Below, one piece after another: positions 346 through 29,096 of a stretch of 29,096 bases of DNA. The DNA is taken from the IMG/VR virus record IMGVR_UViG_3300022745_000126, positions 1 to 29,096 of that record. The stretch is one strand, 5' to 3'. Position numbers and translations under genes: made by a program. The DNA is from a virus. How positions within the stretch are numbered: the first letter of the stretch is position 1; the number at the start of each line of letters is the position of its first letter. Below the pieces are notes generated by a model that saw nothing but the letters and a program-made list of their open reading frames with translations, did not search any database and was not told where the DNA came from.

Positions 346-361
346 TTACCTTTCGAAGTAA
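346..361. repeat. dispersed palindrome, at a leftward start codon
   Basis: TTACC TTTCGA AGTAA, one mismatch in the right half. On the minus strand its GGTAAC half is the ribosome-binding region of the 105-341 gene, with ATC between it and the ATG. Confidence 0.8.
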
Positions 362-374
362 GGGCCGTGTGTGG

Positions 375-533: not shown

Positions 534-537
534 GATG

Positions 538-553
538 TTACCCTCCGGGGTAT
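538..553. repeat. dispersed palindrome, at a leftward start codon
   Basis: TTACC CTCCGG GGTAT, one mismatch. The minus-strand reading contains GGAGGGTAAC, the Shine-Dalgarno of the 375-533 membrane-protein gene, three bases before its ATG. Confidence 0.8.
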
Positions 554-601
554 ACAGGTGTTATGGTGCAGCGGTGGTTTCGTGTATGCGCGGATAGTCA
601 A

Positions 602-624: not shown

Positions 625-637
625 ACTGGAGAGCCTG

Positions 638-653
638 TTACCCTACTGGGTAT
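638..653. repeat. dispersed palindrome, at a leftward stop codon
   Basis: TTACC CTACTG GGTAT, one mismatch. Its last base is the last base of the stop codon of the leftward gene 653-1396. Confidence 0.75.
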
Positions 654-1396
654 CAGTTGCGCGGGGCGGCGAGGGCGTGCACCGGCACCATCCCGCGCTT
701 GGCGAGGAACGCCATCGCTTGTGCCGCTTCCTTCTCGTCCTTGGTCATGGCCGGCACTTCGCCACCTGCCTCGACGATCGCTGCTTTGAGATCCGCCAGC
801 GCCAAGTCAGTCTCCGGCCGCGGGTAGTCGCTGGCAATCTTGTGGAGCGACTTGTACGCAGCGGCGAGCTTCTCAATCTCACCCTTGTCAGCCTTGTCGG
901 GTTTGCAGACGCACGCCGTGATCTGTTCGTCCGTCAGCTTGGTGTCGGGCGTCTCCAGCTGGGCGCGAGCGACGTCCAGCATAGCATCAAAGGGCGACTT
1001 GACCTTGGGGCCATCCTCGTTACCCTTCAAGGTAAGGGCAATCTCAGTGGCGCGCTTGAGCATGCCAGCGGCGCTGTCAAAGGGATCGTTGAGGATCGGC
1101 AGCGCGCCCATCTTGATGACCTGACGAAACTTGCTGACCTGCACCTTGGTGCTGTTGTCCACCAAGGACGCGTCGGGCTTGGGGCCAGACTTGTTAATCC
1201 CGACGGACTTCACGCCATCAAGGTAGACGGCGTACATCTCCTTGGCGTCGTCTTCATCGACGACACCCTCACGCTCCGCCAGCTGAAGGGCTGCTTTGCT
1301 GCGTGACATGCTGCCTTCCCCCTCACTTGCGCCGAGCTTCTTCATGGTCGCCAGCGCTGCGTCATACAGGGGCTGGATGTTGCTTTGATTGGTCAT
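653..1396 (-). CDS. hypothetical early protein, 247 aa
   Basis: A leftward gene. Two ATGs in one frame lie six bases apart (1402 and 1396). GGAG is only two bases from the first but about seven from the second, so I place the start at 1396 (MTNQSNIQPLYDAALATM). The product is charged and mostly alpha-helical, with many Ala/Lys/Glu residues. A two-cysteine stretch ACVCKPDK is followed by a helical region rich in lysine and glutamate. I recognise no domain. A perfect copy of the dispersed palindrome lies within the gene (1020-1035) and encodes L-T-L-K-G-N. Another copy ends at its stop codon. The product is probably an early, non-structural protein. Confidence 0.65.
   Translation of the reverse strand: MTNQSNIQPLYDAALATMKKLGASEGEGSMSRSKAALQLAEREGVVDEDDAKEMYAVYLDGVKSVGINKSGPKPDASLVDNSTKVQVSKFRQVIKMGALPILNDPFDSAAGMLKRATEIALTLKGNEDGPKVKSPFDAMLDVARAQLETPDTKLTDEQITACVCKPDKADKGEIEKLAAAYKSLHKIASDYPRPETDLALADLKAAIVEAGGEVPAMTKDEKEAAQAMAFLAKRGMVPVHALAAPRN
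1020..1035. repeat. dispersed palindrome, within a gene
   Basis: TTACC CTTCAA GGTAA, both halves perfect. Read in the leftward gene it encodes T-L-K-G-N. The same codons recur at the copy in 1482-1907 (T-L-K-G-S). Confidence 0.85.
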
Positions 1397-1425
1397 GGTC
1401 ATTCTCCGGTTTGGGTTGTGAATGC

Positions 1426-1450: not shown

Positions 1451-1468
1451 TGTTTTGAATCTGTGTAG

Positions 1469-1484
1469 TTACTCCGCGAGGTTA
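1469..1484. repeat. degenerate dispersed palindrome, at a leftward stop codon
   Basis: TTACT CCGCGA GGTTA has mismatches in both halves. Its last three bases are the stop codon of the leftward gene 1482-1907. It is counted only because the same placement occurs at three other early stop codons. Confidence 0.4.
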
Positions 1485-1907
1485 CTCGGGAATATCTTCG
1501 ACTGGCGCAGGATCTTCGTCATCCTTTGCCTTGGGGAAAGCTTCTTCGACGAACGCGTCAAACGCGTCGCCCAGTGCTGTCTTTTCAAAAACAGGCGGGA
1601 TATACCGCTCACCGAAGGTCGGCATATACTCCTGTTCGGCAGGTGCCTGCATGCTACCTTTCAAGGTAAGCGACACTCCACGCATGCCATCCAGACCGCC
1701 AGCGGAGAAAAGCTGATCCACTGATGCATCGTTTGCGCCGCGCCGATGCCGCATGACATAGGATTTACGCAGCTTTTTCATACCCGCCACGAGTAGTTCG
1801 GCTTCCACCAGAGCGGCAGAAACAGCACGAATCCCCTGTACAGGCTCCAAATCGAACAGTTCCTTATTCTTCAATCTTACGATTGACAGCTCAGTTGACG
1901 GCTTCAC
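1482..1907 (-). CDS. hypothetical early protein, 141 aa
   Basis: A leftward gene with a GTG start (1907-1905). GAGGTAAC, four bases before the GTG, is the Shine-Dalgarno and is the half-site of the palindrome at 1913-1928. The N-terminal half is basic and helical (MKKLRKSYVMRHRRG around residues 43-57) and the C-terminus is strongly acidic (KAKDDEDPAPVEDIPE). I recognise no family. A palindrome copy at 1654-1669 encodes L-T-L-K-G-S. It is the first gene behind the leftward promoter at 1944-1972, so it is expected to be transcribed early. A charged bipartite protein of this kind could bind nucleic acid or another protein, but that is a guess. Confidence 0.65.
   Translation of the reverse strand: MKPSTELSIVRLKNKELFDLEPVQGIRAVSAALVEAELLVAGMKKLRKSYVMRHRRGANDASVDQLFSAGGLDGMRGVSLTLKGSMQAPAEQEYMPTFGERYIPPVFEKTALGDAFDAFVEEAFPKAKDDEDPAPVEDIPE
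1654..1669. repeat. dispersed palindrome, within a gene
   Basis: CTACC TTTCAA GGTAA, one mismatch, inside the leftward gene 1482-1907, in the same codon phase as the copy at 1020. Confidence 0.75.
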
Positions 1908-1912
1908 TTATG

Positions 1913-1928
1913 TTACCTCGCTAAGTAG
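1913..1928. repeat. dispersed palindrome, at a leftward GTG start
   Basis: TTACC TCGCTA AGTAG, two mismatches in the right half. It lies in the 5' leader between the leftward promoter and the GTG at 1907, and supplies the GAGGTAAC Shine-Dalgarno. Confidence 0.65.
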
Positions 1929-1943
1929 TGAAGAAGTAACGCC

Positions 1944-2346: not shown

Positions 2347-2474
2347 ATTACATCATTTTATTTTTCGCGGGTGTTAGCTGTGCTCTTGAATGCGCGTTTC
2401 GTGCTGACACACTACATCTTGTGGCGCTGTCTATAGGTAGACCCCCGTGGGGTAGACGATCACTATATGTAGTG

Positions 2475-2490
2475 TTACCCCCTCAGGTAC
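2475..2490. repeat. dispersed palindrome, at a leftward stop codon
   Basis: TTACC CCCTCA GGTAC, one mismatch. The stop codon of the leftward gene 2483-2749 lies inside the spacer (2483-2485). Confidence 0.75.
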
Positions 2491-2749
2491 GCGACCATGC
2501 GAACTTGGTGCGCTTGCCCAAGGCTTCACGGGTGGCGAGTGCAAGCGCGCGTTGGGCGATGATCTTGGCTGCGTGGTCAGCTTTCAAGCTTTCCAGCGTG
2601 ACAGGAGCGGGGCGAGGCACGAGCTTGCCACGGATCATCTGATACTCGCCACGCGGTGCAGCAAGCTCAGTGTAGCTTGCCTGTATAGCATACTCAGTTG
2701 CTTCAGCCTTGGCCTTTACGACCTTAGCTTGCATTGCACGGTTAGGCAT
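2483..2749 (-). CDS. small basic hypothetical protein, 88 aa
   Basis: A leftward gene. I place the start at ATG 2749-2747 (MPNRAMQAKVVKAKAEATEY), because TGGAGGTAAC sits immediately before it; the upstream extension of the frame has no such site. The protein is alanine/lysine/arginine-rich and predicted helical, with a central loop (PRGEYQMIRGKLVPRPAP), and ends in a basic tail. No family is recognised; its size and charge would suit a small nucleic-acid-binding phage protein. Palindrome copies sit on both its ribosome-binding site (2752-2767) and its stop codon (2475-2490), so the gene is bracketed by them. Confidence 0.65.
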   Translation of the reverse strand: MPNRAMQAKVVKAKAEATEYAIQASYTELAAPRGEYQMIRGKLVPRPAPVTLESLKADHAAKIIAQRALALATREALGKRTKFAWSRT

Positions 2750-3173: not shown

Positions 3174-3174
3174 T

Positions 3175-3190
3175 TTACCCGGCCGGGTAC
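3175..3190. repeat. dispersed palindrome, intergenic
   Basis: TTACC CGGCCG GGTAC, one mismatch, with a fully palindromic spacer. It starts two bases after the second direct repeat. Confidence 0.7.
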
Positions 3191-3329
3191 CCCCACCCCC
3201 ATATGGACATGCCCCCACCCCACGGGGGGTTCTTCTTTCAGGTACCTTACAAGCTTACATGCTATAAAAAACTAAATACCCCACATATACCCGCTTGATA
3301 TATACCCCACACTATAGTACATCTACTCT

Positions 3330-3872
3330 ATGAAAACATATCAGCTCAGCACCCCGCCTCGAATGCCAGGTATTTACCTTATCCGGCATAAACCCACAGA
3401 CCGGCTATATGTCGGCCGGTCGCTAGACCTGTTTAGGAGATACTCAGATTGGAAGTTATCGCTTACAACCCATCTCGGGATACGCTCCTCAGCGATAAAG
3501 GAACTAGCCAAGCAAAGTTGCATCGACGATTGGGAGTTTAGTACTCTTATCGTTTACCCTGGAGCAACAGACGAGCAGCTTTCTGAGTACGAAAACCGGG
3601 CTGTTTCTAAGATAGGGGGCAGCTCGCCAGACCGGCTCTTGAACACTATTATGCCTAGTACCCCGCAAACGCCGCGCCCCCCTGGCGGTACGACGTCGCC
3701 AAAATCAGTGATTACCCTTGAAGGTAAGCCTACCACATACTCGTCTGCTGCAAAGATTTTAGGGTGTACTCCTAAGCAAGTGCAGAAGCGCATGGCACGA
3801 TACAGAGGGCGGGGGGTTTACGAAGTGGAGGTAGAGGAGCTGAAAACCCTTTCCGAAAAATACCGGGCATAA
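3330..3872 (+). CDS. GIY-YIG endonuclease (homing-type candidate)
   Basis: 180 residues. The N-terminal GIY-YIG nuclease fold is visible: G14-I-Y16, then Y27-V-G29 with the following R30, a basic helix (LFRRYSDWK), and a later SEYENRAV segment providing the usual acidic residue. After a proline-rich linker (about residues 107-125), the C-terminal part looks like a NUMOD-type DNA-binding module (SAAKILGCTPKQVQKRM), as in phage homing or Seg-type endonucleases. It lies alone between the control region and the tail module. No Shine-Dalgarno precedes the ATG; TATAGT at 3313-3318 would place a transcript start almost at the ATG. A palindrome copy (3712-3727) sits in the linker to the DNA-binding part and encodes I-T-L-E-G-K. 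A non-homing repair or restriction nuclease is possible. Confidence 0.8.
   Translation: MKTYQLSTPPRMPGIYLIRHKPTDRLYVGRSLDLFRRYSDWKLSLTTHLGIRSSAIKELAKQSCIDDWEFSTLIVYPGATDEQLSEYENRAVSKIGGSSPDRLLNTIMPSTPQTPRPPGGTTSPKSVITLEGKPTTYSSAAKILGCTPKQVQKRMARYRGRGVYEVEVEELKTLSEKYRA
3712..3727. repeat. dispersed palindrome, within the GIY-YIG gene
   Basis: TTACC CTTGAA GGTAA, both halves perfect. It reads I-T-L-E-G-K and falls just before the C-terminal DNA-binding module. Confidence 0.85.
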
Positions 3873-3972: not shown

Positions 3973-4000
3973 ACGCCAGCAAGGCCTCCCTTGCTGGCGT
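3973..4000 (+). promoter_or_regulatory. 12-bp perfect stem-loop in the leader of the tail module
   Basis: ACGCCAGCAAGG (3973-3984) and CCTTGCTGGCGT (3989-4000) enclose the loop CCTC. There is no U-run after it; the next base pairs start a palindrome copy (4000-4015). It could be a terminator for the GIY-YIG transcript, a leader attenuator or an RNA-processing site. Confidence 0.6.
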
Positions 4001-4015
4001 TACCCACCCAGGTAA
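4000..4015. repeat. dispersed palindrome, intergenic
   Basis: TTACC CACCCA GGTAA, both halves perfect. It abuts the stem-loop at 3973-4000 and lies about 60 bases before the tail-module start. Confidence 0.85.
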
Positions 4016-4077
4016 TAACACTGGCGCACCCCCAAAAATTCCAGTATAACTGCGGGGACAATCCATAGGAGCTCCCC

Positions 4078-4332: not shown

Positions 4333-7265
4333 TTGGGTTCGGGCTCTCTCTGTGGGATAACAGCTCCGGCGCTGGCGCCTCCCCTCTGGCGCTCTACGCC
4401 AATGGTGAACCCGGTCCGTGGATCTCTCCGTCCAATATTATGAGCCTGTTTCAGGACTCCATCGGTACGACGCCCGTGACGGCCTACGGCCAGCAGGTAG
4501 GCCTCGCGCTGGACCAGTCCAACACGATGGCGCTGGGACCGGAACTGATTTCCGGCTCGTGGACGCTCACTGTGGCGGGGACGGCAACGGCAACGGAAGT
4601 TCCTGCAGGGACGCTCAACCTGACTGGCGATGGGACAAACAGCGCGATTGCGGACATGTCCATCGCGACGGTCATTGGTGCGACTTACAAGCTGACTGCT
4701 TCAGGGTCAGGTTCCGCTGCTGGTTTCCAGATCGGTCCTACGCAGGGCAGTAGCGCTATTGCTAACGGGTTTTTCCCCGCAGGGCCAAATACTTCGACTT
4801 TTGTGGCAACCTCAACAACCACTTGGTTGCGCTTTAATCGGTCAGCAGTCGGCACTGCTGTCGTCACCACCATCTCCGCCCGTCAGGTCACGCACCTCGG
4901 CAGCGAGCGGATCACCAACGGGGCGTTCCCGACTGACCTTAGCGGGTGGACGCAGGCCAATACCGGGGCTTCGACTGTCACTTGGTCGGCTGGCGTGGCG
5001 CTGTTCAATACGAATGGCGTGGATGCTGCGCGACTTCGGCAATCCTTTCCCACGGTTGTCGGTGGAACCTATCTAGTGTCAGTTGGTGGCACTGGAATTA
5101 ACGTTGGTATAGGAACGATAGCCGGGGCAGTTGATATTGTAGGGGCTGTAACAACCCCTACTCAACCAACCTTTACCTTCGTTGCGACTACCACTACGAC
5201 TTGGTTCAATACGTCTTCCGCCATCAACGGCTCCACACTCGACAACGTAACCGTCCGCCAGATCATCCGCGACGGCTCGGAAATGAACTCCATCCTGCCG
5301 TGGACCCTGACTGTCGCAGGCACCGCCACCGCTACGGAAAGCCCGACCGGGACGCTCAACCTCACGGGGGATGGGACCAATTCCGGCAACGCAGACAAGT
5401 CGTTTTCGACTGTCGCTGGGGCAACGTACAAGGTCAGCTTCACGGTCGCAACGACAGCAATTTTTGCATCGGTCGGCGTCACGCAGGGCGCGTCAGGTAT
5501 CGTCGCGGCCACGTCTTTCAGCGCTGGCGCTGGCAGCTTCTACTTCCTCGCAACGGGTGCGACTTCATGGGTGCGCTTTGCCAAGACGGGCGCGGCGCTA
5601 TCCATCGTCTCCAACATCTCCGTCAAACTCGTCGCTGGCGCTCACGCCTCGCAGCCGACCTCGACCAAGCGCCCCTACTACGGCCAGTGGCCCGCGCAGA
5701 AGGCACGGAACCTCGCGCAGTATTCCAGCGATCTGAGCAATGCCTATTGGATCAAGCAGGCTGGTGCCTCTGTGGCTGCTGCTGGTGTGAATACCCCGCT
5801 GGGCAACCCGGCGTGGACGATCACCTACAGCGCGATTGACGGAACTGCGCAGGTAAAGTCAGCAACGCGCACGGTCGTCGCGGGTGAAGTATATACTGTC
5901 TCGGCGTGGATTTCAGCCGGAACATCTCCCGCTGTGTCCTTGCGGCTTTTTGATGGTGCAGGAACAGTTGTTCCCGGCGCACCTTCCATAACCCCCACGG
6001 GGTCAATGGTTCGCTATACCTTCTCAGCGGCAATGCCGAACGGCGGGTCTGGGGCTTTCTTTGACATTCGGGGTTCGTCAGTCACCGCAGGCACCGTCAT
6101 CGTCGGGGATATTCAGTGGGAGTTGTCCTCCACCGCCTCTGCCTACCAGAAGCAAACCGGGGCCGGGGTCTACTCCGATCCGCTCTACCGGAACTTGGCG
6201 AACGGGTCGGCTGATGTGGGGAACACGACCTATTGGTACGGATCGAACGCGAGTGCTGGGATCACCTACACCAAAATTGGATCAGGTATTGATATTGATG
6301 GTCTACCTTATGGTGATTTTACTATTTCGGGCACGGCCTCCACAACCGCCTCTCCCGACCTATACGTAATCACTAACTCTCGCGCGCCTGCGGCCCTCAA
6401 TCAAGTCTATACATGCTCCGTTATTTCGCAGGTGATAGCAGGTACACCACCCCCCGGTGGAAGTGGGACGAGACTTGATGTGGTTGGGGAAACGGCACCC
6501 TCTACAATAGTAGAAACTTCTTTTGGGTCAGCCGGGGTAACAGGGACTGCCTCCACTAAGTCCACTACTCTTACTGTGGCAAATGCAGCAACAAACCAAG
6601 TCCGGTTGCGTGTTACGGAAGCAATCGCCAGTGGAGTGACGGTCAACTACACCGTTCGCATCAAAGCCCTCCAGTTCGAACTCGGCACCGCCCGCACCGC
6701 CTACCAAGCCAACTACTCGCAGTACCAAGTCACGGAGGCTGGGCTGCCCTCACCGGCGGGGCTGCTGTTCGACGGCGTGGATGACTTCCTTGTGACGCCG
6801 ACGATCACGCCGGGGACGGATAAAGGACAGGTGTTCGCTGGGCTGCGGAAGCTGTCAGATGCGGCTCGGGCTATATTTGCTACGCAGCAAGGGACGGCAT
6901 CGCGGCTGTCGCTTGAGGCTCCGGGTTCGGCGCTAAACAACTACACAACTACCTCCGGTGGATCAACGCTTGCGGGAGCAAATAGCGGAGCCATTCCTGC
7001 CCCTATCGCGTCCGTTGTCACTGCACTGGACGATATTTCGGGTGTGTCGCTGACTCTTCGCGTCAATGGCGCTCAAGTGGCCTCCAGTGCGGCAACGCAG
7101 GGTACTGGCAATTATACTGCTGGCGCTGTAACCCTCGGGACTAATGGATCAAGTCCCTTCAATGGCGTCATGAACGAGTTCGTCATGCGGTTCGGGCCAA
7201 ACCTCACCACTGGCCAGATCACGTCGACCGAGTCCTACACCAACTCGAAAACCGTCGCATACTGA
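4329..7265 (+). CDS. large tail fibre / receptor-binding protein with carbohydrate-binding-like repeats
   Basis: 978 residues. The N-terminal segment (about 30-65: WISPSNIMSLFQDSIGTTPV, then a GLALDQS-like stretch) is a signature seen in phage tail proteins. It is followed by several Gly/Thr/Ser-rich beta-sandwich repeats resembling carbohydrate-binding modules. Two are close copies: one around residues 75-118 and one around 318-365, both containing WTLTVAGTATATE and GTLNLTGDGTNS. The C-terminal ~180 residues (after LLFDGVDDFLV) look like a concanavalin/LamG-type lectin domain. These features support surface glycan recognition. It is co-translated with the gene before and the protease-like gene after. 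No palindrome copy occurs in its 2.9 kb, and no enzymatic motif was seen. Confidence 0.8.
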   Translation: MIGFGLSLWDNSSGAGASPLALYANGEPGPWISPSNIMSLFQDSIGTTPVTAYGQQVGLALDQSNTMALGPELISGSWTLTVAGTATATEVPAGTLNLTGDGTNSAIADMSIATVIGATYKLTASGSGSAAGFQIGPTQGSSAIANGFFPAGPNTSTFVATSTTTWLRFNRSAVGTAVVTTISARQVTHLGSERITNGAFPTDLSGWTQANTGASTVTWSAGVALFNTNGVDAARLRQSFPTVVGGTYLVSVGGTGINVGIGTIAGAVDIVGAVTTPTQPTFTFVATTTTTWFNTSSAINGSTLDNVTVRQIIRDGSEMNSILPWTLTVAGTATATESPTGTLNLTGDGTNSGNADKSFSTVAGATYKVSFTVATTAIFASVGVTQGASGIVAATSFSAGAGSFYFLATGATSWVRFAKTGAALSIVSNISVKLVAGAHASQPTSTKRPYYGQWPAQKARNLAQYSSDLSNAYWIKQAGASVAAAGVNTPLGNPAWTITYSAIDGTAQVKSATRTVVAGEVYTVSAWISAGTSPAVSLRLFDGAGTVVPGAPSITPTGSMVRYTFSAAMPNGGSGAFFDIRGSSVTAGTVIVGDIQWELSSTASAYQKQTGAGVYSDPLYRNLANGSADVGNTTYWYGSNASAGITYTKIGSGIDIDGLPYGDFTISGTASTTASPDLYVITNSRAPAALNQVYTCSVISQVIAGTPPPGGSGTRLDVVGETAPSTIVETSFGSAGVTGTASTKSTTLTVANAATNQVRLRVTEAIASGVTVNYTVRIKALQFELGTARTAYQANYSQYQVTEAGLPSPAGLLFDGVDDFLVTPTITPGTDKGQVFAGLRKLSDAARAIFATQQGTASRLSLEAPGSALNNYTTTSGGSTLAGANSGAIPAPIASVVTALDDISGVSLTLRVNGAQVASSAATQGTGNYTAGAVTLGTNGSSPFNGVMNEFVMRFGPNLTTGQITSTESYTNSKTVAY

Positions 7266-7624: not shown

Positions 7625-7694
7625 CTGGTGGATCTTACCCTGTGTGGTAACTGGAGCAGTCGCTTGGATACTGCTCCTGGGTCACTTCTTCTAG
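7617..7694 (+). CDS. possible 25-aa membrane micropeptide
   Basis: A GTG-initiated frame overlapping the end of the protease-like gene encodes 25 residues, MTSWWILPCVVTGAVAWILL then LGHFF, which would form one membrane segment. It ends four bases into the convergent TerL stop region. It carries a perfect palindrome copy (7635-7650). No clear Shine-Dalgarno is seen, so coupling would be needed. It could be chance. Confidence 0.25.
   Translation: MTSWWILPCVVTGAVAWILLLGHFF
7635..7650. repeat. dispersed palindrome, between convergent genes
   Basis: TTACC CTGTGT GGTAA, both halves perfect. It is placed between the end of the tail module (7624) and the end of TerL (7691), and is the first copy after the 3.6-kb copy-free tail module. 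Confidence 0.85.
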
Positions 7695-9133
7695 GTCCAA
7701 GCCCGAGACGTCACTTGCTCGCGTGGCGCCCTGTTCCTCGGTCTCAGCCGGTTGGCGACCATATCACTCATACCACCATGAGAAGCTACACAGGCGTACT
7801 GGAACGCGTCTGCGACGTGGCTGTACTCATTCTTGTCCGGAGTGGGCTTACGCACCCCGCCGCGCGTCTTACCGAAGCGGTAACCCCCAGAGAGAGCGCG
7901 CACTAGCATAGGACAGCGTGACTCGTCGATAAGTACCGCCGGGCCACCTTCACGAGACCCCAGGAGCCAGCTCTCCACGGCGTTGAGGCGCTTGCTGATA
8001 TCGTTGGTGGGGGCAGGGTAGGCAAGGAGCCCGTTGCGCTTGATGAGGTCGAACGACGTCTCTTCGTAGAGTGTCGATCTCTGGTTACCTGCGGGGTCAC
8101 CCACGATATAGAGTGCCTTACCAAGATACCTCGGGTTCATCAGTACAGGACGAATCGCGCGCTGCAGTTGGAGCTCAAGCCCGATATCCTCGGCAATAAT
8201 CTCTTCGAGAACGAGCAGCCGGCCGCGGTGATCGGGCTGACAGATTACAGCACAAGGATCTCGGCCGAAGTCGAGTCCGACAATGATAGGCCAACCCGAA
8301 ACTGGCGTGAGATCATTGACGCAGTGCCAGTGACGATTGAAGCTCTCACGGAATACCGCCGTACCCGAGGGGTCATCGCCATACTGAGCATGCACATAGC
8401 GCTTGCACCATGTTGGGGAGTTAGATCGGATGAAGCGCTCATAGTACTTTCTACCTTGCCCCCTGCGGACCTCGTCTGTTACCGGAAGCTTCAGTGTTTC
8501 CGGAGTCTGTGTAAGCCATTCTAGGTTCTCTGCATTATCTTCCATACCGCCAGGCTGAATAAAGATCTGGGCGTCTGGCGGCGGCATAGACATGAACTTA
8601 TGCCAGGGGGTACCTTCTGACGGCATGTTTGTGTCGCAGATAATACCAGACCAAGAGCAGCCACCTAGGGTAGCGCCGGGATAACGGCCGCAGCGACCTG
8701 CAAGCGGGGACATTAGGTCCACGTTCATCTCAATGGCTTCGGACATCCAGGCCCCGGTAAGCTGGAGCGACAAGAGACGGGCTTGATCTTCAGGGTTATC
8801 GAGTGGGATTAGGAGCCATTCACTCCGCACATCTCCGACTTCGATGTATATTGTGCTTTCTGAAACCTTATAGCTTGCAACATGCTTCAACCAGTCTTGA
8901 ATATCCTTTAACACAGTGTCACGCAGCTGTTTTAATGTAGATCGCACCACAGCAAACCGGGTATATCTATATCCATCTGGGGACGGCGCCTGCTCCAGCG
9001 CCCTACGAAAAAGTTCAAAAAGGCATGCAGTGGTTTTACCAGAACCAACAGGACCTGCAATTAACCTAGTGAACGACTTTGACCGCATAAATGCTGCGCA
9101 AGTCGGAGGAGCTGTATAGTTAATCGCTGGCAT
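7691..9133 (-). CDS. terL: terminase large subunit (packaging ATPase/nuclease)
   Basis: 480 residues, leftward. Walker A is GPVGSGKT (residues 27-34). The Walker-B-like segment is LTGAWMSEA around 128-136, followed by the GRCGRYP stretch typical of this TerL branch. The C-terminal RNase-H-like nuclease is shown by GLDFGRDP, then VGDPAG, and HVADAFQYA near the end, which supply the metal-binding acids. It converts ATP hydrolysis into DNA translocation through the portal and cuts the concatemer. The start at 9133 is two bases after the stop of the upstream gene, whose GAGGGATAAC serves as the ribosome-binding site. The operon faces away from the portal gene. Confidence 0.93.
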   Translation of the reverse strand: MPAINYTAPPTCAAFMRSKSFTRLIAGPVGSGKTTACLFELFRRALEQAPSPDGYRYTRFAVVRSTLKQLRDTVLKDIQDWLKHVASYKVSESTIYIEVGDVRSEWLLIPLDNPEDQARLLSLQLTGAWMSEAIEMNVDLMSPLAGRCGRYPGATLGGCSWSGIICDTNMPSEGTPWHKFMSMPPPDAQIFIQPGGMEDNAENLEWLTQTPETLKLPVTDEVRRGQGRKYYERFIRSNSPTWCKRYVHAQYGDDPSGTAVFRESFNRHWHCVNDLTPVSGWPIIVGLDFGRDPCAVICQPDHRGRLLVLEEIIAEDIGLELQLQRAIRPVLMNPRYLGKALYIVGDPAGNQRSTLYEETSFDLIKRNGLLAYPAPTNDISKRLNAVESWLLGSREGGPAVLIDESRCPMLVRALSGGYRFGKTRGGVRKPTPDKNEYSHVADAFQYACVASHGGMSDMVANRLRPRNRAPREQVTSRAWT

Positions 9134-16693: not shown

Positions 16694-16697
16694 GAAG

Positions 16698-19689: not shown

Positions 19690-19704
19690 CCTTTAGGGGA
19701 TAAC

Positions 19705-20678: not shown

Positions 20679-20687
20679 GGTGGTAAC

Positions 20688-21312: not shown

Positions 21313-23475
21313 GTGCCGCCATTGAAGCTATCCAATTTTGGCGGCATGATCCCTGCAGTGGACCCTAACCTGCTGCCGGAAAACCAAGCGCAGCGCGCAG
21401 ATAACGCCTGGGTATATCGCGGGACTGTAGAAGGGTTTCGAGCTCCTGCTCTTGTGCATACCCTCACTGATCCTCTGGCTACAAAAGTTTACCGGATTCC
21501 GATCGAATACTATGACAAGGATCACATCCCGGACTCGTACTGGCTTGAGTTCGAGAACACCGATGTCGACGTCATCAGTACACCAGTAGTCAACGATACC
21601 TACGACCGCTACTACTGGGCATTCTCCCAGACTGGTGGTGGCGGTGTCCCACAATATAACACGAAAGCTCGGATCGCTGCAGGACAAGCGTCGTTCACGC
21701 TAGGCATTCCTCGTCCCAGCTCTGCTCCGCTTGTCACCCGGATTGCCGGGAAATACTTCATCAATGCCTATGGCACGAGCGTAAAGGTGACCCAAGGCAC
21801 TGGCACGGTCATCTATTACGGCCGTTCTTTTGGGCAGGATAGCGACTCATTTGGCACCGGGGGCGTCAATCCTACCAACCCGTCTCAATACGGCGCCACG
21901 CAGGCTATCTCGTCTACCCGCGGCAATATGGATCAGTCTCCGATTGCGTCTGGTAGCTCTACCCCACGCAACCAAGTCTCTGTACTTGGGAAGCATGTCG
22001 AGCTTCGGTATGGCACCGTAACTGCTGGCAAGCGCATAACGATTACAGATACCTCGCAGGTAACTCTCGGAACTCCTCCGACGATCGACCCGGTTTACTC
22101 TACGCCTATCTACACTGGCAGCGGAGTAGCCGAGACGCGGGCCTATGTATACACCTGGGTAAGCGCCTATGGAGAAGAGGGGCCACCCTCTCTGCCGACC
22201 ACCTATGACGGCTGGAGCGGAGACCCATGGATCATCCAGCTGACCGCCCCTCTGAGCGGCGATACGACTAACCGCAACCTATCCAAGACGCGCGTATACC
22301 GCACCGTCACTGGCGTCGGCGGCTCTACCACGTACTTCTTTGTGGCGGAGCTAGATATCGCCATTACCACCTATACCGACACGACTCCAAGCACTGAAGT
22401 CGTCGGCAACAACCTCCTGCAGTCATACTACTACGAGGCTCCTCCTACCGATCTGGAGGGGTTTGCCATGCTCCCCAACGGCATCGTGGCAAGCTGGAGA
22501 AAGAACGAGGTATGGTTCTGCGAGCCTTTCCTTCCGCATGCTTGGCCGTCGCCGTACACCATCGCAACAGAGTATCCTATTGTCGGTATGGGAGTGATCG
22601 GTCAGTCCCTCATCGTGTGTACTTCTGGCTCACCTTACGCCATTTCAGGCATTAACCCTGCTACAATGTCGATGTCTCGGATTGCTGCCAACGAGCCGTG
22701 CATGTCTCGGGGGTCAATCATCTCAACCCCGCAGGGGGTCATGTATGCTTCGCCCAATGGACTTGCCGTAGCAGTCCCCGGAGCTGTCAGCATCATCACG
22801 CGAAACATGATCACCAAGGATCTATGGCTAGATCAGACGAGCTATATTTCAGTCCCCACGCTGCGGGCTTCGCTCTTGAACGGCAACTACTATGCTTGGG
22901 GTTCTGTTCGCTCTGGCGGGTTCCAAGCCGACACGTTCCAGACAGACTCGTTCGCTCAGACGGACTATACCGGGTCGTATAGGGGCGCCCTTATCGACAT
23001 TACAAATCCGCGCGTGTCGTGGATCAACCTTACAAACGACACCCCGATATACAATTGCTTCACTGATCAGGTTACCGGAGAGGTACTTCTCATCAAGGAC
23101 GGCGGTGTGTATTGGCTCGATCTGGCTAAATCACGTACCCACCAACCGTACATCTGGCGGTCCAAGATTTTCGAGTCCGTGAACAAGCGGAACTACGAAG
23201 CCATGCGAGTGTACTTCTCTACATTCGATGACACTCCGCCGCTAAGCACTGTGGCAGTTACAAGTCCGACCACGCTCGAATCGAACATGTACGGCATCGT
23301 TCGCGTTTACGCAGATAATGTGCTAAGGTATTCCAGAGAGATCAGATCCTCCGGCGAGTTCTTCCGCCTGCCGTCTGGGTTCAAAGCCCAGTATTGGGAA
23401 GTGGAGGTTGAAGCCCGGGTAAAACTGATCTCTGTTGAGATGGCTATGACTGCGAAGGATCTTGCTAATGGCTAA
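21313..23475 (+). CDS. tail nozzle/tube-type protein, 720 aa
   Basis: GTG start at 21313 behind AAGGAG. The N-terminus (LKLSNFGGMIPAVDPNLLPE, then NQAQRADNAWVYRGTVEGFR) is the signature of a tail protein class widespread in podoviruses, where it forms the distal tail (T7 gp12 / P22 gp10-like role). The remainder is almost entirely beta, with repeated Gly/Ser/Thr turns and FAMLPNGIVASWRKNEVWFC, then TPQGVMYASPNGLAVAVPG, suggestive of a beta-propeller. A weak 15-nt palindrome (23072) lies inside. It probably forms the channel for DNA ejection. Confidence 0.75.
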   Translation: MPPLKLSNFGGMIPAVDPNLLPENQAQRADNAWVYRGTVEGFRAPALVHTLTDPLATKVYRIPIEYYDKDHIPDSYWLEFENTDVDVISTPVVNDTYDRYYWAFSQTGGGGVPQYNTKARIAAGQASFTLGIPRPSSAPLVTRIAGKYFINAYGTSVKVTQGTGTVIYYGRSFGQDSDSFGTGGVNPTNPSQYGATQAISSTRGNMDQSPIASGSSTPRNQVSVLGKHVELRYGTVTAGKRITITDTSQVTLGTPPTIDPVYSTPIYTGSGVAETRAYVYTWVSAYGEEGPPSLPTTYDGWSGDPWIIQLTAPLSGDTTNRNLSKTRVYRTVTGVGGSTTYFFVAELDIAITTYTDTTPSTEVVGNNLLQSYYYEAPPTDLEGFAMLPNGIVASWRKNEVWFCEPFLPHAWPSPYTIATEYPIVGMGVIGQSLIVCTSGSPYAISGINPATMSMSRIAANEPCMSRGSIISTPQGVMYASPNGLAVAVPGAVSIITRNMITKDLWLDQTSYISVPTLRASLLNGNYYAWGSVRSGGFQADTFQTDSFAQTDYTGSYRGALIDITNPRVSWINLTNDTPIYNCFTDQVTGEVLLIKDGGVYWLDLAKSRTHQPYIWRSKIFESVNKRNYEAMRVYFSTFDDTPPLSTVAVTSPTTLESNMYGIVRVYADNVLRYSREIRSSGEFFRLPSGFKAQYWEVEVEARVKLISVEMAMTAKDLANG

Positions 23476-23770
23476 CTTCTCCTCGATCCCAGACTTTACG
23501 ACCGACATTGTCAGCATGGCAGCGTCGTTACGTATCATGAAGGATGTTGTCGAGCAGCTTGCCGGCTTGCGTCAGGGGGGTTCTGTAGGTTCGCCCCTGA
23601 TGTATATCCAGTCCTATGAACCTGTTCAGTCGTACCAGTCCAAGTTCCGGAAAGGGGATCTATGGATCAGTGCCGAGAATGTAAATCCGGCCGGAAGTCA
23701 GGTAACCTCTAAAGGTAACCTATACTATTGGACCGGGTACTCATGGCAACAGATCACTTTCGTGGTGTAA
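23468..23770 (+). CDS. hypothetical tail-associated protein, 100 aa
   Basis: I place the start at ATG 23468 (MANFSSIPDFTTDIVSMAAS), which overlaps the previous stop by eight bases. The first 40 residues are a helical, Leu/Met-rich segment; the rest is beta-rich and aromatic (KFRKGDLWISAENVNPAGSQ, then NLYYWTGYSWQQITFV). The C-terminal pattern G-D-L-W-x-x-x...W-T-G-x-S-W is found in short phage fibre/tail proteins. A palindrome copy (23703-23718) encodes Q-V-T-S-K-G-N just before the final strands. Function unknown; likely a tail component. Confidence 0.65.
   Translation: MANFSSIPDFTTDIVSMAASLRIMKDVVEQLAGLRQGGSVGSPLMYIQSYEPVQSYQSKFRKGDLWISAENVNPAGSQVTSKGNLYYWTGYSWQQITFVV
23703..23718. repeat. 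dispersed palindrome, near a gene end
   Basis: TAACC TCTAAA GGTAA, one mismatch, flanked by GG and CC so that GGTAACC appears twice in direct orientation; encodes V-T-S-K-G-N. Confidence 0.7.
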
Positions 23771-24213: not shown

Positions 24214-25326
24214 ATGGGCGGTAAATCAAAAGCACCTGCGCCACCGGATTACACGGCTGTAGCCGCCGCGAGCGAAGCAGCAGCTAAGTACAATTTTCAA
24301 CTTGGGCAGGATCAGCTGGCCTGGGCCAAGAGCCAATACGCTTCAGACAGCAACATCGTTAAGCAGGTTGTTGATGCATCTCTTAACCGGCAAGCTGTGA
24401 GCGATCAGAGCGCTGCATCCGACCGAGCTCGGTACGAGAGGCTGTATCAACCACTCGAAGATCAAGCGATCAACGACGCCAACTCGTATTCTTCGCAGGG
24501 TCGCCAAGACTATGAAGCCGGCCGCGCGGGCTCTACAGTCGCACAGCAGTTTGACAGTCAGCGGAAAGCAGCAGCGCAAAACCTTGAGGCCTTTGGTGTC
24601 GATCCATCGAGCACTCGTTTTGCTGCCCTGGATGCCAACTCGCATATCCAGCAAGCCGCCGCGACCGCCGGTGCCGAGAACCAAGCTCGCACGCAGACAG
24701 ATGCTATGGGGCGCGCGCTGCGTTCCGAGGCCATCAACGTTGGTCGGGGCTACCCCGGGCAGATTGCTGGTACTTATGGCACTGCCCTGCAGTCTGGTGC
24801 TTCCGCTGCCAACTCTGCGCTAGCGGGCACTGCTTCTGGCGCATCTATTATGGGAACGAATACGCAGTATCAGGGTCTCGCTAACCAAGCCGTTGGCCAG
24901 TGGGGCAATACCCTTAACAACAGTTACAACAATCAGTTGAACCAGTTCAACGCCAACCAGCAAGCTAGTTCAGGGATTGGCAGCTTGCTTGGCGCCGGCC
25001 TTGGAATGGCAATGAATTTTGCTGAGGGCGGAGCAATCGGTGCGGGGGATGTTGTTCCTCCGTCGGCTTCTCCCTCGCGCGGTGCTGCTATTGACGATGT
25101 ACCTGCAGCTATCGGGGGCGGTGGAAACGCTCGGATCAACGTTGGCGAGTTCATTGTTCCTCAGGACGTAGTCAACTGGAAGGGCGAGGAGTTTTTCCAG
25201 AAGCTTATTGAGGGCTCTCGTAAATCTAAAGTGGAAGCTCCAGCCAAACCAAGCTATGCTCTTCCGAACACGGGTACGCAGAATCCCCAACCTCGCCCCT
25301 CTAGCGGCGCCATTCCCACGAGGTAA
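24214..25326 (+). CDS. internal virion protein (ejection protein candidate), 370 aa
   Basis: ATG 24214 follows GGAGACTTGAG. The first 270 residues are an Ala/Gln/Ser-rich helical region with many small repeats (SASAGAAQ-type composition, NNSYNNQLNQFNANQQASSG near the end). Then comes a Gly-rich FAEGGAIGAGD, and NVGEFIVPQDVVNWKGEEFF toward the C-terminus. This G-G-x-I...G-E-x-I/V-P...F-F pattern is typical of internal core or ejection proteins of podoviruses. It is followed by two further large genes of similar composition. Probably injected with DNA. Confidence 0.72.
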   Translation: MGGKSKAPAPPDYTAVAAASEAAAKYNFQLGQDQLAWAKSQYASDSNIVKQVVDASLNRQAVSDQSAASDRARYERLYQPLEDQAINDANSYSSQGRQDYEAGRAGSTVAQQFDSQRKAAAQNLEAFGVDPSSTRFAALDANSHIQQAAATAGAENQARTQTDAMGRALRSEAINVGRGYPGQIAGTYGTALQSGASAANSALAGTASGASIMGTNTQYQGLANQAVGQWGNTLNNSYNNQLNQFNANQQASSGIGSLLGAGLGMAMNFAEGGAIGAGDVVPPSASPSRGAAIDDVPAAIGGGGNARINVGEFIVPQDVVNWKGEEFFQKLIEGSRKSKVEAPAKPSYALPNTGTQNPQPRPSSGAIPTR

Positions 25327-25329
25327 GCG

Positions 25330-27132
25330 ATGAGCTTTTCGCAAGAAATGAAAGACTTCGTCTCCGGGTGGGGCGCTGTCAATGATATGGTCAACAAGAA
25401 GAAAGAGATCGAGCTCCACAAGCAAGAACTTGAGGATATGAAGCAGTATCGCTCCGATACTATTGATCTCCAGAGGCAAGAGCTCGACCTGAAGCGTGAA
25501 GCCCAAAGCCGCCGCCTTGCTCTGGCCGGATCAGGATCAACCCGTGCATCTGACAAGGCTGCCGCTGCCGTCGCAGAAGCGGTGCTTAAAGGGGTAGATG
25601 TGTCCGGATATACACCAGAGGGTGGGGATACCTCTGGAGGTAACACTGATACAGTGGATACTGCTCCAGATTACCCGGCCGACGCTGCCATCCCTGAAGA
25701 CCCGGTTTCGATGAATTATCGCGGAGGGATGGTTCAGCGCTTTGCCGCCGGCGGCGTAGTTGATCCTGCTGCAAATGATGGGTTGATCGTACCTAAAGAG
25801 GATACCGCTCCGGTAATCCCAAAGCTTCCAGCTAGATCAGCAATCCCTACTCAGCCCGCTACTTCTGCTGCTACAACTGCTGCGCCGCAACAAACTGAAG
25901 CTGCTACGGCTGCACCGAAGACGTCGCTCGTACTAGATGCCTCTCTGCAGGCCATGAAAGATGCCGCTCCGTCTCTTATTGCCGATGCCAAAGCTGCTCG
26001 TACTGGTACTGGAAACCCAGCAACTGACATTGCTACAAATAAGGGTGGACTCTCTACAGAGGAGTGGCAGGCTGCAGTTAAAGCGATCGACCCCAACGGT
26101 GAGATCCCGTCGTACATGCAAGGCGCTGCGGTCCTCGGTTCAACTTATCGGTATTTTGTCGAGCATGGGCAAATGGACAAGGCTCGCAAAATTGCCAAGG
26201 CGATCATCATTGCAGACAAGCAAATGACCCAGACCCTGGGCGCACTGGCGGTCAACGCTATCCAGAATGGCAACGAAGACGCTGCGATCAAGCTCATGGG
26301 CGACGCGTTCAATCGGTTCCCCACGGGCCACGAGGTCAAAGTTGTCAAACAACCTGACGGTAGTATCGGGTATGTGGTTACCGAAGGGGGTAAGACTGTT
26401 CAGCAGGGTTCTCTGAATACTCAGCAATTCTGGCAATTGGCGAACAAGGTACAGGACGGCTCGCTTTATATTCAGCAGATGGGGTCTGTGGCTTCTTCTG
26501 GAGGCCAGAAACAGGGCGGCAGCTACGCCGAGTCTCTGCAAGCTGTATCTGATGCGGCAGCGCAAACTCGTGCTGCAAAGCAGCAATACGATGCCATTAC
26601 TACAGAAGGCGCCAATGGCGATGCTGAAGCCGCTTTGAAGGCCTGGCGGGAAGCAGATGTAGCCGAGCGCGCTGCCAAAGCCGCTGCCCTCAAAGCTGGC
26701 CGCCAGACCTACACTGAAAAAACCAATGTAACCACCGCAGATGCGGAGCTGATGCGGTCTATTCAGAGCGCAGCCGAGTCGAAGAGTCAGGCTGTACCGG
26801 CAGCCCCCTCTGGTGAGACTGCCAGCGCCAGCGCTGATGGCGGTCAGGGGTGGGGCGAGTGGGCACTCAATAGAGCTACGTCTATTACAAACCCGGTAGC
26901 TGCTGCCATCAATGCGGTCGAAGACGCTAAATCTGTGTACAATTACCTTGGCGGTAACCAGCCCACGTCAGCGATCCCTGATGGTCAATCGGCAGCACAG
27001 CCCCAAACGCAGCAGCAAACGCAGCAGCAAGATGCGCCGCAGATCAACGAGATTGTCCCCTACCAAGGAAAGAACTACCGTTTCCTTGGCGGAGACCCCT
27101 CTAACCCTGATAGCTGGGAAGCTGTTCCATGA
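25330..27132 (+). CDS. internal virion protein, large Gln/Ala-rich, 600 aa
   Basis: ATG 25330 follows a GAGGTAAGC half-site-like site. An N-terminal coiled-coil (KKKEIELHKQELEDMKQYRS) is followed by a YRGGMVQRFAAGGVVDPAAN segment related to that in the 370-residue gene, then an Ala/Thr/Gln-rich linker. A more ordered central part (AYAVxx-poor, with LGSTYRYFVEHGQMDKARKI) precedes a long helical repeat region. It ends YQGKNYRFLGGDPSNPDSWE, a short C-terminal domain seen at the end of several phage internal proteins. Palindrome copies at 25628, 26378 and 26943. Probably an ejection protein. Confidence 0.7.
   Translation: MSFSQEMKDFVSGWGAVNDMVNKKKEIELHKQELEDMKQYRSDTIDLQRQELDLKREAQSRRLALAGSGSTRASDKAAAAVAEAVLKGVDVSGYTPEGGDTSGGNTDTVDTAPDYPADAAIPEDPVSMNYRGGMVQRFAAGGVVDPAANDGLIVPKEDTAPVIPKLPARSAIPTQPATSAATTAAPQQTEAATAAPKTSLVLDASLQAMKDAAPSLIADAKAARTGTGNPATDIATNKGGLSTEEWQAAVKAIDPNGEIPSYMQGAAVLGSTYRYFVEHGQMDKARKIAKAIIIADKQMTQTLGALAVNAIQNGNEDAAIKLMGDAFNRFPTGHEVKVVKQPDGSIGYVVTEGGKTVQQGSLNTQQFWQLANKVQDGSLYIQQMGSVASSGGQKQGGSYAESLQAVSDAAAQTRAAKQQYDAITTEGANGDAEAALKAWREADVAERAAKAAALKAGRQTYTEKTNVTTADAELMRSIQSAAESKSQAVPAAPSGETASASADGGQGWGEWALNRATSITNPVAAAINAVEDAKSVYNYLGGNQPTSAIPDGQSAAQPQTQQQTQQQDAPQINEIVPYQGKNYRFLGGDPSNPDSWEAVP
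25628..25643. repeat. dispersed palindrome, within a gene
   Basis: ATACC TCTGGA GGTAA, one mismatch; encodes D-T-S-G-G-N in a linker. A weaker 15-nt copy lies at 25802-25816. Confidence 0.7.
26378..26393. repeat. dispersed palindrome, within a gene
   Basis: TTACC GAAGGG GGTAA, both halves perfect; encodes V-T-E-G-G-K. The spacer begins with a purine, unlike most. Confidence 0.75.
26943..26957. repeat. dispersed palindrome, 15-nt variant
   Basis: TTACC TTGGC GGTAA, perfect halves with a 5-nt spacer; here read in a different phase (N-Y-L-G-G-N). Confidence 0.65.
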
Positions 27133-29096
27133 GTGAAGGTCCGTGGGTTAAGTATGGTCAGGCGGCTCAGGATGCGCCAGCGCCTGAAGCCAGTGGACCG
27201 TGGGAGTCTTATAAGACCTCAGATAAGGCACAACCTGATAAACCGATGTCTCTTCTGGAGGAAGCATCCGTTCCGTTCAGGAGCGCCGCCGCCGGTTTAA
27301 ACTCAGTCAATGAGGGTGTGTACAATATCGCCTCTACTGCGGCAGCGGCTCTAGGGTCTAAAGGTCAGGGATCTTGGACCGATTACTTTCGCCAGCAAGC
27401 AGATGCTAGCCATGCATTGAGCGATAAGATCGAAGGGAAAAAAGCTGATAGCTGGCTTGGGCAGCAGATCCAGAGTTCATTCAGGTCAGTCGGCATGGCG
27501 GCGCCCGGTATTGCCTCTGCAATTCTGGCTCCTGAAGTAGCAGGACCTGCAGCGCTTTATACGTCCATAGCCCCCGGCGCTATTGTGCAGGGAGGCGACT
27601 CTGTACGGAAAGCTACAGATGAGGGTGCAAGCCCACTTCACGCCCTTATTTACGGCTTTACTGATGCTGCTGCTGAAGTTGCCTTCGAAAGACTTCCCCT
27701 GACTAAGCTCTTGAAGGATGTCCAAGAAGGTACTGGCATCGGCAAGACGCTGCTTCATCAGATCATTACGGAAGTACCTTCTGAGGTAGCCACTACGCTA
27801 TTTCAGAACCTGAATGAGTACACTTCGCTACACCCTGATAAGTCGTTCATGGACTTCTTGAAGGAACAACCTGCTGCTATACGTGATACTGTTGTCCAGA
27901 CACTGATTATGTCTGGTACGATGACTGGCGGCGCTAAGGCAGTTCAGCATGTGGCCGGTAAATTCGGCGCTGAACAGATCCCCGAGACTGGCCCTGACAA
28001 AGCTCAGGCAGATGCACTAGCTGCTACGCCTATCGCTACGCCGAATGCCAAGCCTGCTACCGGCGTCCAGATGTCTCCGGAAGTCGCCGCTGCATTGGCG
28101 GCTGTACGGGCTAAACGCGAAAATCCCAAAGCCCCGGTTACCGAGCAGGGTAATGCACCCGCTACCGAAGCACCCGCTACCGAAGCACCCGCTACCGAAG
28201 CACCCGCTACCGAAGCACCCGCTACCGAAGCACCCGCTACCGAAGCACCCGCTACCGAAGCACCCACTGACCAGAATGCTTCTGGGGATACCCAAGAGAC
28301 AGTACCGGAGACGCCGGATACTCTGGCGGAGCAAAACAAGTCTTTGCTCGACCCTGCCAGTTCTCGGAGAGCTGTGTACATCCCTGCGGAGACAATCGCT
28401 CAGGGCAACGTGGATCTTCCGACGGGAGCTAGGATTGCATCCTACCGCACCCCCGATGGCGGATTAATCTTCTGGAACCGAAAGAAAATCGACTTGGGCG
28501 CAAGGGCTATTGCCGCGTTCTACAAAGATGGCTCGTTGGGTAAACTCCTGGGACTCGGCGACTTCACCAAGGCAGACGTGGCACAGAGCGCTGCGCAGGG
28601 TAATACCCCTGTCGCCGTCACGGAACGTACCCCCAATGGTACGGAGGTTAAGGCGGCTGCAGGGACGACTGAAACCGCGCCGGACCAACTGGCAGCACTG
28701 ACTGCTCAGAAGGACGCCGGCAATACGGTGCAGGTGGAGTCCCCGGCTGCGGTATTGAATGCGCGCGTGGCTAATCAGGACATCACGGCAAATGTGGATA
28801 CCCCACCGGTATCTAACGGCTCTGTGCTATCTAAGATGACACCAGAACAAATTGCAGCAATCGAGGCTAGGTCTTCTAAACCGGCGACGGTAGCACCTGT
28901 TGCCAATGCGCCTGTGCAGGGACCTGTCTCTACTCCTGCACAAGCCCCTATCCCGCTTGTAGAAGAGCAGAAACCTGCAGAGATGTCGCTGCCGGTAGAA
29001 ACACCTAAAGCAGAGGAACCTAAGGTAGTCGTTACCCCCGAGGGTAAGCGTCAGATTTTTCTGCCTACTTCGCAGGAGACTACAGATCTCATGGAT
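27129..29096 (+). CDS. very large virion protein, N-terminal part (runs off right edge)
   Basis: ATG 27129 overlaps the previous stop (ATGA). The frame stays open to the window edge: 656 codons. The N-terminus MSEGPWVKYGQAAQDAPAPE repeats an S-G-P-W-x-x-Y/S phrase. Residues ~40-280 form a hydrophobic helical domain (SVGMAAPGIASAILAPEVAG, then HALIYGFTDAAAEVAF) that may insert in a membrane. A seven-fold A-P-A-T-E repeat follows (about 343-378), then Ala/Pro/Thr-rich linkers around a domain with IPAETIAQGNVDLPTGARIA. The size and linker-domain plan match giant polyvalent phage proteins that are ejected with the genome. No catalytic motif is visible in this part. Five palindrome copies lie in it. 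Confidence 0.72.
   Translation, partial: MSEGPWVKYGQAAQDAPAPEASGPWESYKTSDKAQPDKPMSLLEEASVPFRSAAAGLNSVNEGVYNIASTAAAALGSKGQGSWTDYFRQQADASHALSDKIEGKKADSWLGQQIQSSFRSVGMAAPGIASAILAPEVAGPAALYTSIAPGAIVQGGDSVRKATDEGASPLHALIYGFTDAAAEVAFERLPLTKLLKDVQEGTGIGKTLLHQIITEVPSEVATTLFQNLNEYTSLHPDKSFMDFLKEQPAAIRDTVVQTLIMSGTMTGGAKAVQHVAGKFGAEQIPETGPDKAQADALAATPIATPNAKPATGVQMSPEVAAALAAVRAKRENPKAPVTEQGNAPATEAPATEAPATEAPATEAPATEAPATEAPATEAPTDQNASGDTQETVPETPDTLAEQNKSLLDPASSRRAVYIPAETIAQGNVDLPTGARIASYRTPDGGLIFWNRKKIDLGARAIAAFYKDGSLGKLLGLGDFTKADVAQSAAQGNTPVAVTERTPNGTEVKAAAGTTETAPDQLAALTAQKDAGNTVQVESPAAVLNARVANQDITANVDTPPVSNGSVLSKMTPEQIAAIEARSSKPATVAPVANAPVQGPVSTPAQAPIPLVEEQKPAEMSLPVETPKAEEPKVVVTPEGKRQIFLPTSQETTDLMD
28138..28153. 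repeat. dispersed palindrome, at the left edge of the A-P-A-T-E tandem repeat
   Basis: TTACC GAGCAG GGTAA, both halves perfect; encodes V-T-E-Q-G-N. It ends two bases before the 15-bp tandem repeat, whose unit resembles it. Confidence 0.8.
28156..28260 (+). repeat. seven exact tandem copies of a 15-bp unit
   Basis: CACCCGCTACCGAAG is repeated seven times without a mismatch, followed by a partial CACCC; it encodes A-P-A-T-E repeats in a flexible linker of the large virion protein. Exact identity at all positions, including wobble bases, indicates recent slippage expansion. Confidence 0.95.
28627..28642. repeat. dispersed palindrome, compensated copy
   Basis: GTACC CCCAAT GGTAC: both halves differ from the consensus by the complementary change, so the dyad is intact. 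Encodes R-T-P-N-G-T. A second compensated copy (ATACC CCACC GGTAT) is at 28798-28812. Confidence 0.65.
29032..29047. repeat. dispersed palindrome, within a gene
   Basis: TTACC CCCGAG GGTAA, both halves perfect; encodes V-T-P-E-G-K. Confidence 0.85.

Follow-up and report, generated by a model that had tools for sequence, protein, structure and literature searches.

The dyad in the window

We analysed IMGVR_UViG_3300022745_000126, a virus record of IMG/VR that consists of a linear fragment of 29,096 bases (the window, by which the whole stretch is meant). A short inverted repeat is dispersed between and within its genes. This repeat, the dyad, has the consensus [G]TTACCY-N4-RGGTAA[C], and its TTACC cores are separated by 5 or 6 bp (N5 and N6 sites); a dyad-type duplex has the sequence GTTACCTTTCGAGGTAAC. 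The window encodes a head-and-packaging module together with internal virion proteins. No near DNA match to it was found among 50,697 deposited phages. By portal protein, its closest isolates are the RHph_TM27A group (TM27A in the following), four near-identical Rhizobium phages with 64% identity, and next come HMO-2011-like and other podovirus-type phages with 21-28%.

The abundance of the dyad was assessed by pattern and matrix searches. N6 matches with at most two mismatches number 40 in the window, a count that was not attained by any of 100 dinucleotide shuffles (7.5 ± 2.7 matches). With a matrix of 8-bp half-sites, 40 sites were likewise found (30 N6 and 10 N5), compared to 1.5 in the second-order Markov sequence that served as background. 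All twelve exact TTACC-N6-GGTAA and all four exact TTACC-N5-GGTAA copies reported by the first-pass annotation of this DNA were recovered where it had placed them. It had put the chance level at 0.03-0.06 copies. The real level is higher, since exact sites inside genes averaged 0.80 (maximum 3) in 100 synonymous-codon shuffles, but with 12 such sites in the window the enrichment survives this codon-preserving control, which had been set beforehand as the refuting check. The same excess over synonymous-codon shuffles was obtained in seven of seven genomes tested, for example 20 versus 1.4 sites in TM27A and 32 versus 1.0 in G007 (G and L numbers label relative genomes and loci; L085 is TM27A). 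Two diverged copies had been described as still symmetric: the one at 28798 passes the matrix, whereas the one at 28627 is not a matrix match.

The sites of the window are listed below without strand, together with the gene of a candidate binding protein, F27. Unless another basis is given, a site was found by both pattern match and matrix.

156..173: dyad, diverged (N6), matrix score 14.9
345..362: dyad, 1 mismatch (N6), intergenic
537..554: dyad, 1 mismatch (N6), intergenic
637..654: dyad, 1 mismatch (N6), on stop of gene 653-1402
653..1402, minus strand: F27 gene, conserved early protein with all-helical predicted fold, leading candidate binder
1019..1036: dyad, exact N6, within F27 gene
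1468..1485: dyad, diverged (N6), upstream of F27, matrix score 14.8
1653..1670: dyad, 1 mismatch (N6)
1912..1929: dyad, diverged (N6), 4 nt ahead of start of gene 1482-1907 (minus strand), matrix
2474..2491: dyad, 1 mismatch (N6), on stop codon
2751..2768: dyad, 1 mismatch (N6), covers ribosome-binding site of leftward gene starting at 2749
3174..3191: dyad, 1 mismatch (N6), in G-rich non-coding region
3711..3728: dyad, exact N6
3999..4016: dyad, exact N6, intergenic
5790..5807: dyad, diverged (N6), matrix score 12.8
7634..7651: dyad, exact N6, directly downstream of terminase gene
7868..7884: dyad, exact N5, within terminase gene
8084..8100: dyad, 1 mismatch (N5), within terminase gene
9471..9488: dyad, exact N6
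9883..9899: dyad, exact N5, within gene 9810-10337 (minus strand), kept in relatives; pattern, relatives compared
11127..11144: dyad, 1 mismatch (N6), within portal gene (codons V T W E S N); pattern, relatives compared
11640..11657: dyad, 1 mismatch (N6), within portal gene
14218..14235: dyad, exact N6
14287..14303: dyad, exact N5
16677..16694: dyad, exact N6, ends 3 nt ahead of start of gene 16698
17856..17873: dyad, 1 mismatch (N6)
19673..19690: dyad, exact N6, upstream of endolysin gene 19705
20670..20687: dyad, 1 mismatch (N6), adjoins start of gene 20688
20757..20774: dyad, exact N6
22048..22064: dyad, 1 mismatch (N5)
23071..23087: dyad, 1 mismatch (N5)
23702..23719: dyad, 1 mismatch (N6)
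25311..25327: dyad, weak (N5), 2 nt ahead of start of gene 25330, matrix score 11.7
25627..25644: dyad, 1 mismatch (N6)
25801..25817: dyad, 1 mismatch (N5)
26377..26394: dyad, exact N6
26942..26958: dyad, exact N5
27773..27790: dyad, diverged (N6), matrix score 14.8
28137..28154: dyad, exact N6
28797..28813: dyad, diverged, still symmetric (N5), matrix score 15.4
29031..29048: dyad, exact N6

The genes of the head-and-packaging module are:

7691-9133, minus strand: terminase gene
10317-12512, plus strand: portal gene
15149-16150, plus strand: major capsid protein gene
19705-20109, plus strand: endolysin gene

Distribution in related phages

The enrichment expected in related phages was found. 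The matrix yielded 971 sites across 20 genomes or fragments, 20-87 in each compared to 0-2.2 in simulated sequence, and the near-complete contigs of at least 56 kb carry 31-87 each; these relatives are mostly metagenomic fragments with genes called in this analysis, and their sequences are akin, so that the counts are not independent. The complete genome of TM27A (MN988461) carries 34 exact dyads (26 N6 and 8 N5). When the commonest inverted repeat was determined with no sequence presupposed, most genomes yielded the dyad, either as such or in a lineage version. Lineage versions include GTTACT-N6-AGTAAC (G004, G005), half-sites GTTACCG (G022) and TTACCT (G024), and TAACTAT-N2-ATAGTTA, whose half-site occurs in G029 and others; each whole genome shares one half-site version. 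Further loci carry CTACTT-N4-AAGTAG, TTACTCA-N2-TGAGTAA or TTACCC-N3-GGGTAA and, at lower count, TTACGCC-N3-GGCGTAA. In G015, G016, G017 and G010, exact dyads scarcely outnumber other inverted repeats and the sites are visible only by matrix. A second repeated dyad, TTTCCC-N3-GGGAAA, is present in 6-9 exact copies per locus alongside TTACC-N6-GGTAA in L200, L201 and L202.

The dyad-bearing clade consists of podovirus-like phages whose known isolates infect rhizobia. The dyad is not a trait of the wider portal family, as HMO-2011, phiM6, RHph_N3_19, CHOED, Rollin and vB_Pun_Y3 lack it (for several of these six, the first 50 kb were covered). Nor is it a host regulator motif, since host chromosomes show no excess of dyads. 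The window terminase has many relatives in IMG/VR, and two relatives lie in Bradyrhizobium assemblies, where seven of nine and five of six exact dyads lie on a single phage-sized contig. These two contigs (L231, Bradyrhizobium sp. 139, 61.0 kb; L232, Bradyrhizobium genosp. SA-3, 60.6 kb) have about the size of a complete clade phage and no chromosome attached. They possibly represent an extrachromosomal carrier state or contamination. A scan of IMG/VR by DNA alone with GTTACCTN4AGGTAAC returned mostly lone chance matches, and clade genes were present in 11 of the 13 loci with at least three dyads.

Location relative to genes and conservation of position

Sites are enriched immediately ahead of start codons. 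For 186 of the 971 sites, the distance from the site end to the following start codon is 0-7 nt, compared to 10.5 expected (18-fold). Because the gene caller favours Shine-Dalgarno sequences, the test was redone with the deposited genes of TM27A, where 13 of 61 sites lie 0-7 nt before a start compared to 0.74 expected. Tandem junctions carry 375 sites (116 expected) and the inside of genes carries 538 (827 expected); convergent and divergent junctions have sites as well. Within genes one reading frame is preferred (134 of 169), in which neither arm yields a stop codon. Within 5 kb of F27 the density of sites is 1.89 per kb compared to 0.78 per kb elsewhere, and it is higher around 17 of 17 F27 copies. 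In TM27A, G003, G007 and G028 the sites are spaced more evenly than at random (coefficient of variation 0.34-0.63; none of 4000 simulations was as even), but in most other genomes the spacing is not significantly even. As a separate observation, a gene family of about 235 amino acids (G004:23120-23908) has a dyad centre 10-36 nt ahead of its start codon in ten of ten genomes.

Conservation by position in relatives, which the first-pass annotation had proposed as a check, was found for near relatives only. The portal site at 11127..11144 reads GTT ACC TGG GAA AGT AAC in the window, GTT ACC TGG GAA GGT AAC in close relatives and GTT ACT TGG GAA AGT AAC in L015/G005, where both arms are the half-site of that lineage and one of the changes is non-synonymous. 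About ten of the closest relatives keep a site at this position. Among 91 relatives, 89 show no indel in the alignment around it, and the site arose by substitution. The site at 9883..9899, near the end of the terminase-adjoining gene 9810-10337, reads ATT ACC CCG CAG GTA ATC versus ATT ACT TCG AAA GTA ATC, so that here too both arms are altered in the GTTACT lineage. In more distant relatives both sites were lost or never present.

Architecture of the sites

To distinguish DNA from RNA recognition, the independence of the two arms was analysed in 206 exact sites from 12 genomes. The arms agree in 89 sites at position 6 (103 expected), in 45 at position 7 (70 expected) and in 102 at the outer position (101 expected). 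One-armed changes of C5 to T, read on the sense strand, give 29 U.G and 33 C.A mismatches, thus showing no strand preference. In sites with two mismatches that both fall at one half-site position (n = 32), 13 changes are complementary and 19 are not, which is about the chance level of one-third. Half-site positions 3 and 4 (A and C) are nearly invariant and change is tolerated at positions 1, 2 and 5. In 78% of the half-sites of the 206 exact sites, position 6 is occupied by C or T, in agreement with the pyrimidine and purine spacer ends noticed before. Immediately beyond 18 bp, the information content falls to background and the flanks are unrelated. Independent arms, strand neutrality and sharp 18-bp edges together point to two protein subunits, each of which would read one half-site.

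Candidate binding proteins

The protein that we tentatively put forward as the dyad binder is F27, encoded at 653-1402 of the window (EVB29_028 in TM27A). All clade contigs of at least 56 kb encode F27. In total it was found in 16 of the 20 genomes or fragments, and the four that lack it are shorter fragments. F27 and the dyads are both missing from the six more distant phages, including Rollin, which shares other clade genes. Among deposited phages, F27 was found in none outside the TM27A group, and locus searches based on F27 returned no loci beyond those already known. Among 34 families, F27 shows the closest correlation between sequence distance and half-site distance (partial r 0.70, permutation P < 0.002). 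A first AlphaFold2 (AF2) model from 14 sequences reached a predicted local distance difference test score (pLDDT) of 80 with no fold match. A second AF2 model, of a homologue with 44 sequences, is all-helical with a pLDDT of 93; it has no fold match in PDB and just two relatives in BFVD. A one-residue rule of specificity, in which the residue after an SK motif is H, Q or N with GTTACT and L, F or I with GTTACC, is valid among near relatives but fails in L195 and L214 and was rejected. Two F27 paralogues lie a few kb apart or less in L052, L179, L195, L204 and L214.

A second candidate is a winged-helix protein that resembles PhoB (EVB29_062 of TM27A, 34663-34977; alignment A4), which is present in 12 of 13 genomes that cover the relevant region and was not found in G025. 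It shows a weak likeness to response-regulator domains (E 0.005). A gene with an HTH_17 (MerR-like) domain was rejected as a universal binder, since it was not found in the dyad-bearing TM27A, G004, G022 and G025. The deposited 'integrase' of TM27A (L085:42248-45331) is probably a DUF927/primase-type replication protein, given the DUF927 match in the TM27A set, which makes the annotated attL and attR doubtful.

Dyads as proposed operators of a dimeric protein

It is very probable, judging from the sequence features described above, that a dimeric protein binds the dyads. Of the roles that had been suggested at the outset, that of operators for such a protein is favoured by the independent half-sites, the sharp 18-bp edges and the lineage changes in both arms. 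The dyads may well serve as operators for a dimeric protein encoded by the phage, which would silence or road-block transcription throughout the genome, and the chief effect of the predicted binder is perhaps on transcription. In such a scheme the two subunits of a two-fold symmetric dimer would each contact one [G]TTACCY half-site. The binder would build up early and occupy sites at gene starts and inside genes, and transcription would be blocked or tuned, chiefly in the early region and more weakly in the remainder. Early genes would be shut down as the binder accumulates, or in a carrier state. It is a more doubtful proposal that F27, with a fold that has no match in PDB, controls its own genome as a unit via dozens of symmetric sites whose specificity is renewed by lineage.

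Several observations weigh against operators read by F27. Two spacer lengths (5 and 6 bp) are unusual for a rigid dimer, and over half of the sites are intragenic, for which a role in transcription is an assumption. F27 has no recognised DNA-binding domain. The families of an ejection protein (0.67) and of a VWA protein (0.63) track the half-site nearly as well as F27, and with two unrelated families so close behind, the correlation of F27 is a lead and not a proof. The PhoB-like winged-helix protein is also a possible binder, as the runner-up. Finally, no repressor, integrase or partition gene is among the best 25 of 44 Pfam families in TM27A or the best 25 of 42 in G015, so that a lysogenic repressor is not evident.

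The strongest rival explanation is that the dyads serve a genome-organising protein, which would bridge or coat many copies for condensation, protection, segregation or packaging. The genome-wide density of about 0.5-1.5 sites per kb, which includes structural genes and the giant ejection gene, the occurrence at all junction types and inside genes, and the even spacing in TM27A, G003, G007 and G028 are consistent with it. On the other hand, most other genomes lack even spacing, and neither the 18-fold association with start codons nor the peak around F27 is expected of a purely structural function. We consider this role unlikely.

That the dyads act as hairpins in mRNA, masking the ribosome-binding site (AGGTAAC) until a regulator opens or binds them, is improbable. 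The 186 sites 0-7 nt before a start codon place their right arm over the Shine-Dalgarno position, and the changes in both arms of the GTTACT lineage would preserve pairing too. However, an RNA hairpin such as the promoter early stem-loops of T4-type phages should show its pairing in the sequences, whereas there is no surplus of paired combinations at positions 6-8, U.G is not preferred over C.A, so that mismatches are blind to the transcribed strand, and double mismatches are complementary at about the chance level. Moreover, 55% of sites lie well within genes, and an Rfam search gave no match.

It is very improbable that the dyads are replication iterons of a winged-helix initiator, acting as scattered initiation or handcuffing sites. 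The word GTTACC-N6-GGTAAC does occur at replication genes of two elements unrelated to the clade, with four copies within a phage replication-O gene (L269:2232-2386; Pfam Phage_rep_O, E 2.6e-26) and two copies directly after a TTGACA box and ahead of a RepL-like gene (L318:4983-5021). The same 18-bp word at these loci supports its being a protein-binding site, possibly for an initiator-like binder. But there the 2-4 copies are clustered at a single gene, whereas those of the clade are dispersed; 40-60 origins per genome are implausible; and a Phage_rep_O or RepL-like gene is absent from the best-matching Pfam families of TM27A and G015 given above.

A self-spreading palindrome, or a repeat that arises as a side effect of codon use and Shine-Dalgarno sequences, is hardly credible: the right arm is Shine-Dalgarno-like and one frame is preferred in genes, but codon-preserving shuffles fail to yield the dyad, the preferred frame is the one with no in-frame stop codon, the portal site was reached through substitution in a nearly indel-free alignment, and around the dyad copies, whose flanks share no common sequence, neither identical flanks nor target-site duplications were seen.

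Relation to known systems

Operators of a dimeric protein would have their closest counterparts in actinobacterial phages. In Cluster A mycobacteriophages (L5, Bxb1), the repressor binds 20-30 dispersed stoperators and blocks transcription elongation (PMC6550527, PMC9283540). Stoperators and dyads share tens of short sites per phage genome, a motif that shifts by lineage and a location often away from promoters. Stoperators, however, are 13 bp long, asymmetric and mostly oriented with transcription, and are bound by the monomeric immunity repressor of temperate phages. Dyads are 16-18 bp long and free of orientation, number 31-87 per near-complete genome, and about half of them lie in genes; in the best 25 Pfam families of TM27A and of G015, neither integrase nor repressor was recognised.

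Cluster K mycobacteriophages carry start-associated sequences (SAS) directly upstream of start codons, and extended SAS (ESAS) with subcluster-specific inverted repeats; their role is likewise unsettled (PMC3203893). The analogy drawn by the first-pass annotation is closer than it could tell, in that dyads share the placement immediately ahead of start codons (186 of 971). The SAS consensus is GGGATAGGAGCCC and 6 of 125 lie inside open reading frames (ORFs), whereas in the present clade the repeated unit is itself the dyad, and 538 of 971 sites are intragenic. Since the dyads lack defining features of both stoperators and SAS/ESAS, we file them under neither. The TM27A group (MN988461 and three near-identical isolates) belongs to the same clade as the window and has the same dyad and the same F27 gene, with a portal protein that is just 64% identical. 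In the literature searched, no paper describing the dyad of this group was found, in line with the earlier impression that the motif matches no known one.

Among phages, temperate ones of actinobacteria are the best-known carriers of dispersed operator systems, and the dyads of this clade would be a dense, symmetric and strand-neutral version. Since the clade includes Rhizobium isolates (TM27A and its near-identical relatives), binding, immunity and effects on transcription can be tested directly. The site sequence shifts by lineage while some positions stay, which offers a natural experiment on the joint change of specificity and site. For F27, the foremost candidate, neither a relative beyond the clade nor a structural match in PDB is known; if the proposal is true, F27 would be a phage counterpart of a chromosome-wide regulator.

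Other features of the window and its relatives

In the window, a gene for a homing-type nuclease of the GIY-YIG family lies at 3330-3872 on the plus strand (Pfam slightly under the cut-off; PHROG homing endonuclease). The long non-coding early region contains G-rich runs (window 2800-3340 and L085:17560-18170) with no Rfam match. Within the large virion gene 27129-29096, an in-frame (ATEAP)n tandem repeat occupies 28200-28330. In TM27A, about twelve small paralogous early proteins with an 'AMLLG...Y' and 'D..T(M/L)EP' pattern are encoded at L085:21659-37734.

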